From Chloroflexota bacterium (lineage in GTDB: Bacteria; Chloroflexota; Limnocylindria; Limnocylindrales; CSP1-4): DNA of 55,811 bases. A program made the position numbers and the translations under genes. The stretch is taken from positions 1 through 55,811 of the forward strand of contig JAJYJO010000007.1 of the NCBI GenBank assembly GCA_021789435.1, written 5' to 3'. Below the pieces are notes generated by a model, which saw only the letters and a program-made list of their open reading frames with translations, ran no database searches and had not been told where the DNA came from. How positions within the stretch are numbered: the first letter of the stretch is position 1; each line of letters starts with the position of its first letter. This document shows, piece after piece, positions 5,268-11,314 of the stretch.

Positions 5268-6431
5268 ATGCACGATCGGAGGGTCGTCAGGCTCGTGCCC
5301 GCTGTCGACGTCCGTCTCGTCGATGTCACCAAGCGGTTCGGCGACGTCGTCGCCGTCGATCACATCAACCTCGAGGTCCAGGACGGCGAGTTCTTCTCGC
5401 TCCTCGGACCCTCGGGCTGCGGCAAGACCACGACCCTGCGCATGATCGGCGGCTTCGAGGAGCCCACGAGCGGGCTCATCGAGCTGCAGGGACAGGACGT
5501 CACCTGGCTGCCGCCCTACCGCCGGAACGTCAACACCGTCTTCCAGAACTACGCCCTCTTCCCCCACCTCAACGTCTTCGAGAACGTCGCCTTCGGCCTC
5601 CGCCGCCGAGGGGTGAAGGGCCCGGAGCTGAGCAGCCGGGTCGGCGAGATGCTGCGGCTGGTGGAGCTGCCTGGTTACGAGAAGCGGCGGCCCTCCCAGA
5701 TCTCGGGCGGCCAGGCCCAGCGCGTCGCGCTCGCCCGGGCCCTGATCAACCGGCCCGCCGTGCTCCTGCTCGACGAGCCCCTGGGGGCGCTCGACCTCAA
5801 GCTGCGCAAGCAGATGCAGGTCGAGCTGAAGCGGATCCAGCAGGAGGTCGGGATCACCTTCATCTACGTGACCCACGACCAGGAGGAGGCGATGACGATG
5901 TCGGATCGCATCGCCGTGATGAGCGCCGGGCGCTACGAGCAGTTGGGCAACCCGGAGGAGCTCTACGAGCGACCCCGGACGCGGTTCGTGGCCGGCTTCC
6001 TCGGCGTCAGCAACCTCCTCCAGGGGACGCTCGAAGGGGGCGCCGATGCCTACGCCGTGATCCGCCTGCGGACGGGCATCGGGATCCGGGTCCCGCGTGG
6101 GCTCACCAACGGCCACAGTGAGGTCGAGGTCGGGGTGCGGCCGGAGAAGATCCGGCTCTTCGCCGAGACGGCCGATCCGCCCGGCGACGCCAACGTGCTC
6201 GACGGCGTAATCCGAGACGCGAGCTACCTGGGCGTCAGCACCCAGTACATCGTCGAGACGTCGATCGGCGAAGGCGTCGCCGTCTACGAGCAGAACGTGG
6301 AGCGGACCGAGCACGGCTCGCTCCACCGGTCGGGCGAGCGCGTCCGGCTGGCCTGGTCACCGGATCACACGTTCGTCGTCAGGGCCGAGGGCGAGGCCGC
6401 CGCGCCGGCCTCGCCGAAGCCGGAGACCTGA
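5268..6431 (+). CDS. potA: Spermidine/putrescine-type ABC transporter ATPase PotA
   Basis: An importer ATPase of 387 aa. It shows Walker A ([11 protein letters not shown]), Q-loop (FQNYALFPH), signature ([15 protein letters not shown]), Walker B ([12 protein letters not shown]) and the H-loop ([10 protein letters not shown]), then a C-terminal TOBE-type domain ([13 protein letters not shown]). It would energise uptake with the binding protein and permease that follow, at the inner face of the membrane. The ATG at 5268 is taken by convention; an in-frame GTG at 5295 has a good Shine-Dalgarno (GGAGGG at 5278-5283, 11 nt away) and leaves the ABC domain intact, so it may be the true start. First gene behind the promoter at 5084. 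Confidence 0.93.
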
Positions 6432-6468: not shown

Positions 6469-7701
6469 ATGGCCGAGCACGTACCCGACACGTCTCTCGT
6501 CAGTCGCCGCCGCCTGCTCCAGGGCGCGGCGCTGGCCGGCTTCGGAGCATTCCTGGCGGCCTGCAGCGGCAGCTCCCCCACCGCCTCTCCGAGCACCGCC
6601 GCGAGCACGGCCGCCAGCGCCGCCGCCAGCCCGACACCGACGCCGGTCCCGACGCCCAAGGTCCTCGGCAACATCCTCAACTTCGCCAACTGGCCGGCCT
6701 ACATCGATGTCGCCTCCAGCGGCCCCGACAAGGGCAAGTCGCCGACCCTGATCCAGTTCCAGCAGCAGACCGGCGTCAAGGTCAACTACCAGGAGAAGAT
6801 CGACGACAACGCCACGTTCGTGGCGACGATCCACGACCAGCTCCAGGCCGGCCTCGACACCGGCTGGGACCTGATGGTCCTGACCGACTGGATGGCCGCT
6901 CACCTGATCGGGCTCAAGTGGATCGAGAAGATCGACCAGGACAACGTTCCCAACTGCGTCGCCAACCTGCAGGACTCGCTGCGGAACCTGCCCTGGGACC
7001 CGCCCAACGACTACCACTACACCTGGCAGTCGGGCATGACCGGCGTCGGCTACAGCAAGAAGGGCGTGGCCAAGGCCGGCATGCAGGCACCGACGAAGGT
7101 CGCCGACCTCTGGGACAGCCGGCTGGCCGGCCATGTCACCTTCCTGACGGAGATGCGCGACACCTTCGGTCTCGGAGCGCTGAAGCTCGGCATCGATCCC
7201 CTCCAGGTCACCACCGACGACGTCAACAACAAGATCGTGCCCGACATGCAGCCGCTGGTCGGCCAGGGCCTGCGCTTCACCGGCAACTCGTATCTCCAGG
7301 ACTTCGCCAGCGGCAAAGTCTGGGCGGCCATGGTCTGGTCCGGCGACCTGGCCTCGTCGGGCGACCCCGACCAGCTCTTCGTGTTCCCCGCCGAGGGGAC
7401 GATGATCTGGTCGGACAACATGCTCATCCCCAAGGGCGCCCAGCACAAGTACGCCGCCGAGACGTTCATGAACTTCGTCTACCAGCCCAACATCGCGGCC
7501 CAGATCGAGGACTTCGTCTTCTACGTCTGCCCGGTGAAGGGCGCCGCCGTCGAGATCAAGAAGATCGATCCGGGGGCCGAGTCGAACCCGCTCATCTTCC
7601 CGACGCCCGACATCGTCGCCAAGCAGCACGCCTTCAAGACGCTCACCGACACCGAGAACACGCAGTTCAACGACGCCTTCAGCACGCTGACCGGCGCCTA
7701 A
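6469..7701 (+). CDS. potD: Polyamine ABC transporter substrate-binding lipoprotein PotD
   Basis: The 410-aa protein starts with an export signal having twin arginines (SRRRLLQ) and a lipobox ending LAAC at residue 28, so it is probably a Tat-exported lipoprotein. A Ser/Thr/Pro/Ala linker follows to residue 64. The mature domain begins ILNFANWPAYID, the usual opening of PotD/PotF-type solute-binding proteins, with WDLMVLTDWMA and MVWSGDLASSGD as further family-like stretches. GAGGAG lies before the ATG. The ligand is likely putrescine, spermidine or a related amine, matching the aminotransferase in the operon, though related proteins bind other cations. Confidence 0.92.
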   Translation: MAEHVPDTSLVSRRRLLQGAALAGFGAFLAACSGSSPTASPSTAASTAASAAASPTPTPVPTPKVLGNILNFANWPAYIDVASSGPDKGKSPTLIQFQQQTGVKVNYQEKIDDNATFVATIHDQLQAGLDTGWDLMVLTDWMAAHLIGLKWIEKIDQDNVPNCVANLQDSLRNLPWDPPNDYHYTWQSGMTGVGYSKKGVAKAGMQAPTKVADLWDSRLAGHVTFLTEMRDTFGLGALKLGIDPLQVTTDDVNNKIVPDMQPLVGQGLRFTGNSYLQDFASGKVWAAMVWSGDLASSGDPDQLFVFPAEGTMIWSDNMLIPKGAQHKYAAETFMNFVYQPNIAAQIEDFVFYVCPVKGAAVEIKKIDPGAESNPLIFPTPDIVAKQHAFKTLTDTENTQFNDAFSTLTGA

Positions 7702-7766: not shown

Positions 7767-9005
7767 ATGGTCCGCTCCCGCCACTCGCTCCTGAGGACCC
7801 TCACCCCCTACATCCTGCTGGCGCCCGGCATCCTCTGGCTGGTCGTCTTCTTCCTCCTGCCGAGCGTCCAGATGTTCCTCTACTCGGTCTCGCAGGGGAC
7901 CGTGGACACCGGCTACCACGTGGCCTGGGTCTGGGACGCCTACGCCCGCATCCCCCAGCTCTTCAGCCGCCAGTTCGGCAACTCCCTCATCTACGGCGGG
8001 CTGGCGACGATCCTGACCTTCCTGATCTCGTATCCCCTGGCCTACTTCATCGCCTTCCGGGGCGGCCGCTACAAGAACCTGATCCTCTTCCTGGTGATCG
8101 CCCCGTTCTTCACCAGCTTCCTCATCCGGACGATCTCCTGGCAGATCATCCTCGGCGACAACGGGCCGGTGATCGTTGCCCTGCGCGACTACCTCAAGGT
8201 GGTGCCCGCGAACTTCACCTTCCTGGGCGAGCCCGTGGCGGTCGTCTCGGGCATCGTCTACAACTTCCTGCCGTTCATGACGCTGCCGCTCTACGTCGCC
8301 CTGGAGCGGATCGACCTGCGCCTCGTGGAGGCTGCCCGGGACCTCTACGCCGGACCATGGCGGCCGCGCGGCCCGGTCTACGGCGCGGCCTTCGGCGCCC
8401 TGCTGGGAGGCGTCGTGGCGTGGGGCGTCGAGTACGACACCCCGTTCTTCGCGGCGCTCGGCGCGCTGATCGGCCTGCTCGTCGGTGCGTTCGCGGTCAA
8501 CGAGTCGTTCCTGCGGGTGACCTTCCCTCTCTCGTTGCCCGGCGTCTTCGCCGGCTCGCTGCTGACCTTCATCCCGGCGATGGGCGACTACGTCAACGCC
8601 TCGCTGCTGGGCAGCCCCAAGACCCAGATGATCGGCAACGTCATCCAGGGCCGGTTCCTCGTCGTGGTCACCGTCCGGGCCCGCATGGCGGGCTTCGACC
8701 GGCGCCTGGAGGAAGCGTCCATGGATCTCGGGGCGAACGAGTGGACGACCTTCTGGCGGGTGACCTTCCCGCTGATTTTCCCCGGGATCATGGCCGCTTC
8801 CCTACTCGCCTTCTCCCTCTCGATCGACGACTTCGTGATCACGAACTTCACCTCGGGCCTCACCAACACCTTCCCGATCTGGGTCTGGGGCTCGATCCGG
8901 ATCTCGCTGCCCGTCCAGATCAATGTGGTCGGCTCGATCATCTTCCTGACGGCCGTGGGGCTGGTCGGCTTGTCGACGCTGCTGCAGCGTCGGGGAGACC
9001 GGTAG
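7767..9005 (+). CDS. Polyamine-type ABC permease: PotB-PotC chimera with extra membrane hairpin
   Basis: A 412-aa membrane protein. Residues 1-195 follow PotB (four membrane segments, then the EAA-loop start VEAARDLYA). Residues about 196-246 are a Gly/Ala-rich insertion with two likely membrane segments (GAAFGALLGGVVAWG and AALGALIGLLVGAFAV). PotB resumes at FLRVTFPLSLPG and runs to GNVIQGRFL near 298. The sequence then passes in frame into the second half of PotC: VTVRARMAGFDRRLEEA, a second EAA loop (MDLGANEW) and the last two membrane segments. PotB's final helix and roughly the first 140 residues of PotC seem absent, and no separate potC follows. It may be a deletion product, an assembly artefact or a real single-chain permease. 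The residual family assignment is secure; function is uncertain. Confidence 0.85.
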   Translation: MVRSRHSLLRTLTPYILLAPGILWLVVFFLLPSVQMFLYSVSQGTVDTGYHVAWVWDAYARIPQLFSRQFGNSLIYGGLATILTFLISYPLAYFIAFRGGRYKNLILFLVIAPFFTSFLIRTISWQIILGDNGPVIVALRDYLKVVPANFTFLGEPVAVVSGIVYNFLPFMTLPLYVALERIDLRLVEAARDLYAGPWRPRGPVYGAAFGALLGGVVAWGVEYDTPFFAALGALIGLLVGAFAVNESFLRVTFPLSLPGVFAGSLLTFIPAMGDYVNASLLGSPKTQMIGNVIQGRFLVVVTVRARMAGFDRRLEEASMDLGANEWTTFWRVTFPLIFPGIMAASLLAFSLSIDDFVITNFTSGLTNTFPIWVWGSIRISLPVQINVVGSIIFLTAVGLVGLSTLLQRRGDR

Positions 9006-9012
9006 CGCGGCG

Positions 9013-9942
9013 ATGACCGCCGAGAGCGAGCCCGCTCCTTCTGGCCCCTTCCTCCGCGACGATGGCCCGGATGGCGGGACACCCACGGGTGGGCTCTTCC
9101 GGATCACCGAGGCTGCCGAACACGTCGGGGTCTCCCCCTCGGCGTTGCGCCTCTGGGAGCGCCAGGGCCTGGTCGGACCGCGGCGCGGCAGAGGCCGCCA
9201 CCGCCTCTACAGCCCGGCCGACCTGGCCCGCCTGCGCGCCATCCGCCGGCTGCGGCAGGTGGAGGGGCTGAACGCCGCGGCGATCCGGAGGGTCCTGCCG
9301 GCCGAGTCGCCGCCGACGCCCGGGATCGACCCGCGGGCCCGGCTGGGGCGGTCGCCGTCTGCCGCGTCCCGCCCGGGCGGGGGTGGGCCGGACGGCGGGC
9401 CGGATCCCGGCCTGGCGAGCCGGCTGCGCCGTCTGCGCGGAGCACGGGGCCTCTCCCTGCGGGAAGCCGGCGCCGCCAGCGGTCTCTCGCCGTCGTTCAT
9501 CTCGTCCCTCGAGCGCGGCCTCACGGGGGCCTCGCTCGACGCCCTCCGCCGGCTGACCCGGGCCTACGCCACGACGCTGGGCGAGCTCCTGCGGGACCCC
9601 GGCCTGGCCGGCGGTCGGCTGGTCCATCCTGCCGATCGCACCGTGCTGGAGGCCGGCAACGGGGTGCGGATCGAGGACCTCTCCCGGGCGCCGACGCAGC
9701 TCGAGTCGCAGCTCTTCGTCCTGGCGCCGGGCGCCAGCAGCGACGGCTACTACTCCCACCCGGGCGAGGAGCTGATGTACCTGATCGAGGGTGCCCTCAC
9801 CGTCTGGCTCGACGAGAGCGAGCGCTACGAGCTGGGGCCGGGCGACGCCCTCACGTTCCCGTCCACCGTCTCGCACCGCTTCGAGGCGCCCGGCCCGGCC
9901 GAGACACGCCTCCTCTGGATCAACACGCCGCCCACCTTCTGA
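9013..9942 (+). CDS. MerR-XRE-cupin triple-domain transcriptional regulator
   Basis: Residues 28-95 are a MerR-type winged helix (FRITEAAEHVGVSPSALRLW, RLYSPADLARLRAI). After a Gly/Pro linker, residues 132-195 form an XRE-type HTH (LRRLRGARGLSLREAGAASG, SPSFISSLERG). Residues 230-309 are a cupin (YSHPGEELMYLIEGAL, LGPGDALTFPS). XRE-cupin regulators such as PuuR often control amine catabolism and the cupin binds the effector. The added MerR domain is unusual, and no typical MerR C-terminal effector region is present. The gene starts 7 nt after the permease stop and precedes the aminotransferase, so it most likely controls this operon. Confidence 0.9.
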   Translation: MTAESEPAPSGPFLRDDGPDGGTPTGGLFRITEAAEHVGVSPSALRLWERQGLVGPRRGRGRHRLYSPADLARLRAIRRLRQVEGLNAAAIRRVLPAESPPTPGIDPRARLGRSPSAASRPGGGGPDGGPDPGLASRLRRLRGARGLSLREAGAASGLSPSFISSLERGLTGASLDALRRLTRAYATTLGELLRDPGLAGGRLVHPADRTVLEAGNGVRIEDLSRAPTQLESQLFVLAPGASSDGYYSHPGEELMYLIEGALTVWLDESERYELGPGDALTFPSTVSHRFEAPGPAETRLLWINTPPTF

Positions 9943-9970: not shown

Positions 9971-11314
9971 ATGCCCGAGACCGCCGCCCCGAACCCGCCC
10001 GGCCACGGCGCCCTGGCCGGCGTCGAGCCGATCCCGGATCGCTCGGTCGTGCCGCCGGTCTGGTCCCGCTACACCGACATCCTGGTGGACCACGGCGAGG
10101 GCTCGTGGCTCGTCTCCGCGGACGGCGAGCGTTACCTCGACTACAGCTCGGGGATCGGCGTCACGAGCACCGGCCATGCCCACCCGCGGGTGGTCCGGGC
10201 GATCCAGGAGCAGGCCGCCCGGCTCCTCCACGGCCAGCAGAACATCGTCTATCACGAGGCTGGGCTCCGGCTCTACGACCGGCTCTCGCGCCTCCTGCCG
10301 GGCGAGGACTGGAGCGCCTTCCTGGCCAACAGCGGCGCCGAGGCCGTCGAGGCCGCGGTCAAGCTCGCCCGGGTCGCGACCGGCCGGCCGGTCATCATCA
10401 CCTTCCGCGGCGGCTTCCACGGGCGGACCGGCCAGACGATGGCCCTGACGACGGCCAAGAACGTCTATCGGGGCGACTTCGAGCCGCTGCCGGGCTCGGT
10501 CTACGCCACGCCGTACCCCTACTGCTTCCGGGCGGCCGGCGGAGCGCACGATCCGGCCGCCTGCACCTGCGACTGGGAGGACCAGCTCGAGCTGACCTTC
10601 GCCCAGCTCGTCCAGCCCGACCACGTGGCGGCGATCGTGGTCGAGCCGGTCCTCGGCGAGGGTGGCTACGTGGTCCCGCCCCCGGCCTTCCTGCCCCGGC
10701 TGCGCCGGATCGCCGACCGCCACGGGATCCTCCTGGTGGCCGACGAGGTCCAGAGCGGCTTCGGGCGGACCGGCCGCTTCTTCGCGTTCCAGCACTGGGA
10801 CGCCACGCCCGACATCGTGGTCATGGCCAAGGGGATCGCCTCGGGGCTGCCGCTGTCGGGGATCCTGGCTCGGCGCGCCCTGATCGAGCGCTTCCCGCCC
10901 GGGACGCACGGCGGCACGTTCGGCGGCAACGTGGTCTCGTGCGCGGCCGCCAACGCCACGCTCGACGTGATCGAGGACGAGGGGCTCGTCGACAACGCCC
11001 GGGAGCGCGGCCGGCAGCTCCTGGCCGGGCTTCGGGCCTTGGCCGCGCGGCACCGCTCGGTGGGCGACGTGCGGGGGCTGGGGCTGATGGCCGCCCTGGA
11101 GTTCGTGCGACCGGACGAGGGCGACGGGCGCGTCCCGGACGGGGCCCTGGCCCACCGGGTGATCGCCGCGTCCCTGGAGCGGAAGCTGATCGTGCTCTCC
11201 GCCGGGACCTGGAACCAGGTGGTCCGGGTCATCCCGCCGCTGGTGACGACGCCGGACGAGGTGGACCTGGCCCTCCGCACCCTGGGCGCGGCGCTCGGGG
11301 CCGCCGGCGCCTGA
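9971..11314 (+). CDS. Class III aminotransferase (GABA/putrescine/ornithine type)
   Basis: A 447-aa PLP enzyme of fold type I. It shows ANSGAEAVEAAVKLAR (phosphate-binding turn), FRGGFHGRTGQTMALT, the cofactor Asp in LLVADEVQSGFGRTG, and the Schiff-base lysine in VVMAKGIASGLPLSG. The C-terminal half has GTHGGTFGGN, typical of 4-aminobutyrate and related omega-aminotransferases. A good Shine-Dalgarno (GAGAGGT) precedes the ATG. In an operon with a polyamine importer it probably transfers the amino group of putrescine or GABA to 2-oxoglutarate; the exact substrate is inference. Last gene of the operon. Confidence 0.9.
   Translation: MPETAAPNPPGHGALAGVEPIPDRSVVPPVWSRYTDILVDHGEGSWLVSADGERYLDYSSGIGVTSTGHAHPRVVRAIQEQAARLLHGQQNIVYHEAGLRLYDRLSRLLPGEDWSAFLANSGAEAVEAAVKLARVATGRPVIITFRGGFHGRTGQTMALTTAKNVYRGDFEPLPGSVYATPYPYCFRAAGGAHDPAACTCDWEDQLELTFAQLVQPDHVAAIVVEPVLGEGGYVVPPPAFLPRLRRIADRHGILLVADEVQSGFGRTGRFFAFQHWDATPDIVVMAKGIASGLPLSGILARRALIERFPPGTHGGTFGGNVVSCAAANATLDVIEDEGLVDNARERGRQLLAGLRALAARHRSVGDVRGLGLMAALEFVRPDEGDGRVPDGALAHRVIAASLERKLIVLSAGTWNQVVRVIPPLVTTPDEVDLALRTLGAALGAAGA

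Follow-up and report, generated by a model that had tools for sequence, protein, structure and literature searches.

The window, by which we mean the whole stretch of 55,811 nucleotides analysed, carries a polyamine transporter locus on the forward strand. The first gene is potA (5268-6431, with the start codon picked by eye), encoding an intact ABC ATPase with ABC_tran and TOBE_2 domains (PF00005 and PF08402), which scores 384 bits against the TIGR01187 cut-off of 356 and is 79% identical to the PotA of the sister-genus genome G032, with no large gaps. It is followed by potD (6469-7701), an intact polyamine-type solute-binding lipoprotein recognised by the SBP_bac_8 and PotD/PotF models and 74% identical to its G032 counterpart over residues 42-452. 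Downstream of the permease region lie an intact, syntenic regulator (9013-9942, assigned from domain models and its match to G032) and an intact, syntenic class-III aminotransferase (9971-11314; PF00202, 77% to G032). The regulator combines a MerR-type HTH, an XRE-type HTH and a cupin domain in a single chain, of which the C-terminal part is PuuR-like, and its position between the polyamine transporter and the aminotransferase is conserved in G032.

The relatives have the operon order potA-potD-potB-potC-regulator-aminotransferase, in which potB and potC are separate genes. In G032 the locus reads mrp (on the opposite strand), potA, potD, potB (341 aa), potC (293 aa, overlapping potB by four bases), regulator and aminotransferase, the same order as in the window, and, apart from PotB and PotC, the G032 proteins of this block align with window proteins along most of their length.

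In place of the two permease genes the window has one open frame at 7767-9005 of the forward strand, encoding 412 aa with zero internal stops. Residues 1-298 (7767-8660) are PotB minus its last 41 codons, which encode TM6, and are 77% identical to the PotB of G032. Residues 299-412, which with the stop codon occupy 8661-9005, are the C-terminal part of PotC, comprising the end of TM4, the EAA loop, TM5 and TM6, and are 87% identical to residues 181-293 of the G032 PotC. The PotB part ends in MIGNVIQGRFL at Leu298 (8658-8660), and the PotC part begins at Val299 (8661) with VVVTVRARMAGFDRRLEEASMDLG. The E. coli chains 8y5f_B (PotB) and 8y5f_C (PotC) match one part each and meet at 298/299, and chance overlap of frames as the source of the chain was ruled out by the strong homology of both halves. 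The PotB coupling motif LVEAARDLYAG is kept, with a 47-aa insert coming next, and a second, PotC-derived EAA (coupling) loop lies at 8676-8753 (forward strand; RARMAGFDRRLEEASMDLGANEWTTF) with all its conserved columns present. An earlier note made from the sequence had described PotB as running to GNVIQGRFL near 8660, fused there in frame to the second half of PotC, with two EAA loops in one chain, and each of these points was borne out. Pfam detects a permease domain in the chain, which reaches no curated NCBIfam cut-off for PotB or PotC (186 bits against 348 for the PotB model NF007044, and 102 against 326 for the PotC model NF007047).

The interval that separates the join points in G032 is 662 bp long and comprises 41 PotB codons and PotC codons 1-180. 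Relative to G032 the chain is thus missing PotB TM6, in the 41 C-terminal residues, and PotC TM1 to most of TM4, and neither part is a six-helix permease. The loss of one PotB membrane helix had been correctly read; the accompanying figure of about 140 lost PotC residues holds in E. coli numbering, where the residues present correspond to 142-253 only, and in this lineage the loss is approximately 180. Neither a second potC nor a potC N-terminal piece was found across the genome bin (2.85 Mb in 156 contigs, 91% complete), in agreement with the earlier note's statement that there is no other potC.

Homologs in the family were examined for the same arrangement. A single match spanning residues 1-412 was found in just one of the 107 family genomes, that of the window itself, and the fusion is therefore not conserved in relatives. 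In the sister genus (G032, G101, G102 and G105), and in the other family members with the locus, potB and potC are two separate matches. Where both genes lie on one stretch the relatives have 575-821 bp between the join points, and the sister-genus loci L010/L147, L130 and L131 have 662 bp each. The sister genus is the nearest comparison, the genus of the window being represented by one genome only in the set compared; its loci in G032 and L147 share with the window the operon order, 77-87% protein identity and the PotB insert, but differ in having two complete, overlapping genes with the 662 bp present. The comparison with potB and potC of relatives, which the earlier note had put forward as a check, thus returns two complete separate genes at this place. 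A candidate natural full-length PotBC fusion in G019 (a 602-aa open frame) was rejected, as it consists of two ORFs with a stop between them. In four fragmented relatives (L151, L011, L153 and L148) a contig ends no more than about 150 bases from the position equivalent to the junction. A second sister-genus potB-potC locus (L152, G102:C281:1-4000) has its potB split over two frames near residue 160-175, which may be a frameshift, an error or a different strain.

The E. coli PotABC-PotD spermidine importer (8y5f and related entries; PMC11414716) allows the join to be placed in a known structure. Both halves of the window chain align with it around the join, PotA and PotD are present in both systems, and the EAA coupling motifs are the same. 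In E. coli, PotB and PotC are separate chains of six helices each that form a pseudo-twofold pair, with K241 of PotB as a residue of the periplasmic gate and F142 of PotC as one of the cytosolic gate (PMC11414716), whereas the window lacks PotB TM6 and PotC TM1 to most of TM4. By alignment, the join connects PotB position ~245, after K241 and before TM6, to PotC position ~143, beside F142. A point on the periplasmic side therefore meets the cytosolic end of PotC TM4 with no membrane span between them. Nine hydrophobic segments are seen in the hydropathy profile of the chain, namely PotB TM1-4, two from the insert, PotB TM5, and PotC TM5 and TM6. As the sequence FLVVVTV at the join is too short to cross the membrane, the second EAA loop and the C terminus are predicted to face outward, with PotC TM5-TM6 inverted; this loop has five arginines and the C-terminal tail is Arg-rich. 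The insert in PotB contributes two helices and leaves the parity unchanged. AlphaFold2 modelling of the fusion (pTM 0.51) gives pLDDT values mostly below 50 from about residue 243, where the underlying alignment is almost empty, and the model is not counted as evidence for or against. On the predicted topology it is very unlikely that the 412 residues form a working permease, and transport has probably been lost.

The reading that we favour, with a probability of about 0.6, is a real and recent deletion of ~660 bp in an otherwise intact potA-potD-potB-potC operon, and the junction (8656-8664, forward strand) is on this reading its scar, with 662 bp gone relative to G032. Such a deletion would have taken the last PotB helix together with PotC TM1 to most of TM4, and would have left the two gene remainders in one frame by chance. 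The product would be a topologically inconsistent permease fragment, the PotABCD importer of the strain would most likely be dead, and potA and potD would be left partnerless. What is observed is the frame, the join, the missing parts, the intact neighbours and the two genes of the relatives; the presence of the deletion in the cells, its recent date and the loss of transport are inferred. The comparison with relatives favours the damaged transporter that the earlier note had named as one of two readings, since the missing block is exactly the 3' end of potB and the 5' part of potC and the relatives have both genes complete.

Intact separate genes are present at the same locus in close relatives, as would be expected of a pseudogene, and there is no sign of the relaxed selection or decay that a pseudogene may also show: none of 41 conserved PotC columns (across the EAA loop and the TM5-P3-TM6 region) and one of 78 conserved PotB columns are changed, there is no frameshift or stop, and dN/dS of the PotC part against G032 is 0.087. 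The deletion would therefore be young relative to the split from the sister genus, or a strain variant, or not real. Absence of decay is expected for a very young deletion, but also for an assembly error or for a product under selection. The open frame itself requires no selection, as a random deletion keeps the frame one time in three.

The sequences at the breakpoints were compared in the relatives, where PotB reads RFLES or RFLTS and PotC reads NISYVVVTV. DNA identity in register is 0-5 nt, and the longest stretch shared within 60 nt of both breakpoints is 9 nt, which is too little overlap to ascribe the event to homology. The earlier note had pointed to similar PotB and PotC sequence at the junction and suggested deletion by short homology; a deletion does fit, but the similarity is slight and the homology route weak at best. 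A real deletion would more probably have arisen by illegitimate recombination. The junction word had no match in IMG/VR.

The leading alternative, which is a real though lesser possibility, is that the genome has complete potB and potC genes and that the assembler or a gap closer bridged the missing 660 bp. The window is a single contig out of the 156 in its genome bin, nothing else in the operon is damaged and the remnants show no decay, and contigs end near the site in G102 (C136), G003 (C358), G106 (C27) and G105 (C30), so the region may assemble poorly; contig ends do, however, abound in bins as fragmented as these. With at most 9 nt shared at the breakpoints of relatives an ordinary de Bruijn join is unexpected, which argues against k-mer collapse by the assembler, and the rest of the bin contains no fragment of the potC N-terminal region. 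Collapse via a repeat was rejected for the want of any common word longer than 9 nt around the breakpoints. A chimera of two organisms is not indicated either, both halves and the flanking genes being closest to one sister genus.

It is highly improbable that the product is a functional minimal permease, in which the 412-aa chain, as a monomer or a homodimer, would import substrate together with PotA. The frame and both EAA loops are kept, the PotC remnant shows a purifying pattern, and genuine fused permeases exist in the superfamily (FbpB-type, 9j4r_A; PhnU2, 546 aa, TIGR03262), which like the window chain have two EAA loops per chain. These known fusions, however, carry two complete transmembrane domains in approximately 490-550 aa, whereas the 412 aa of the window make up an incomplete domain and a fragment, with nine segments of which two come from the insert. 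The join is also topologically inconsistent, the two helices of the insert leave the parity uncorrected, and no relative has the fusion. The genuine single-chain permease that the earlier note had entertained is therefore disfavoured, given the missing helices and a join that would leave the second EAA loop facing the wrong way. A related version, in which the hairpin and rearranged helices replace the lost ones and a single chain, or a homodimer of it, suffices for both PotA subunits, is more improbable still; if, for example, one hairpin segment did not span the membrane, the second EAA loop would again face the right way. The PotC-PotD fusion MMSYN1_0195 (NF043073) is likewise a fusion of polyamine-transporter genes, but it joins other partners in a 1021-aa model, of which only the PotC-like positions 142-233 match the window chain. 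Equally improbable is a polymorphism in which a sub-population carries the deletion, its allele was assembled and other cells keep a working importer, which would fit the absence of decay and the choice of one allele by a consensus assembly, but the bin contains no intact allele and from the genome sequence alone it would look the same as a fixed recent deletion.

An unremarkable recent deletion, or else an error of assembly, is the most likely source of the fusion. Should the deletion be real, the strain would have lost polyamine import while its ATPase, its binding protein and the two downstream genes for the regulator and the aminotransferase remain. The locus also calls for caution, as the in-frame join of neighbouring paralogues mimics a domain fusion, and it is the relatives and the topology that reveal a deletion scar.

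The 47-aa insert in PotB (8361-8501, forward strand), overlooked in the earlier note, lies within PotB's own EAA loop. It occupies residues 199-245, directly after the coupling helix EAARDLYAGPW, and is a Gly/Ala-rich hairpin with two hydrophobic segments; it was defined from alignments with and without the insert, a profile search and an AlphaFold2 model of the relative L045. The PotB of G032 and L147 has the same insert, and E. coli PotB is without it. A profile of the region matched 33 of the 177 genomes of the class, all of them in the family of the window (33 of 107), and, in a sample of 400 genomes from the phylum, none that lies outside the family. Carriers are found among L010-L020, L045 and L129-L146, and the insert measures 47 or ~56-58 residues; the PotB genes without it have a normal short EAA loop. 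In a PotB tree computed with the insert removed (L010-L038, L045, L046 and L129-L146), insert-bearing and insert-free genes are intermingled, a pattern suggestive of clean loss on several occasions or of recombination in the EAA loop.

Only sub-threshold glycine-zipper similarity was obtained for the insert with Pfam, and a literature search of open-licence papers returned nothing relevant on an EAA-loop insertion, or on a PotB-PotC fusion, of this kind. As far as these searches show, the insert is a new variant of PotB. It places a hairpin, in one bacterial family, directly after the PotB coupling helix in the loop that passes ATPase motion to the membrane domain, and is in effect a natural test of how much a coupling loop tolerates, which makes it of more interest than the fusion scar. 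One guess is that it serves as a spacer or clamp next to the coupling helix. When the complete L045 PotB was modelled with AlphaFold2, the model (pLDDT 91, pTM 0.85) had helices at 205-225 and 230-247 following the coupling helix at 188-197, with local pLDDT of 76-86, and its best solved match is E. coli PotB (8y5f_B), with a TM-score of 0.84 by target length. L045 is apparently the same gene as L138, as their coordinates and scores match.
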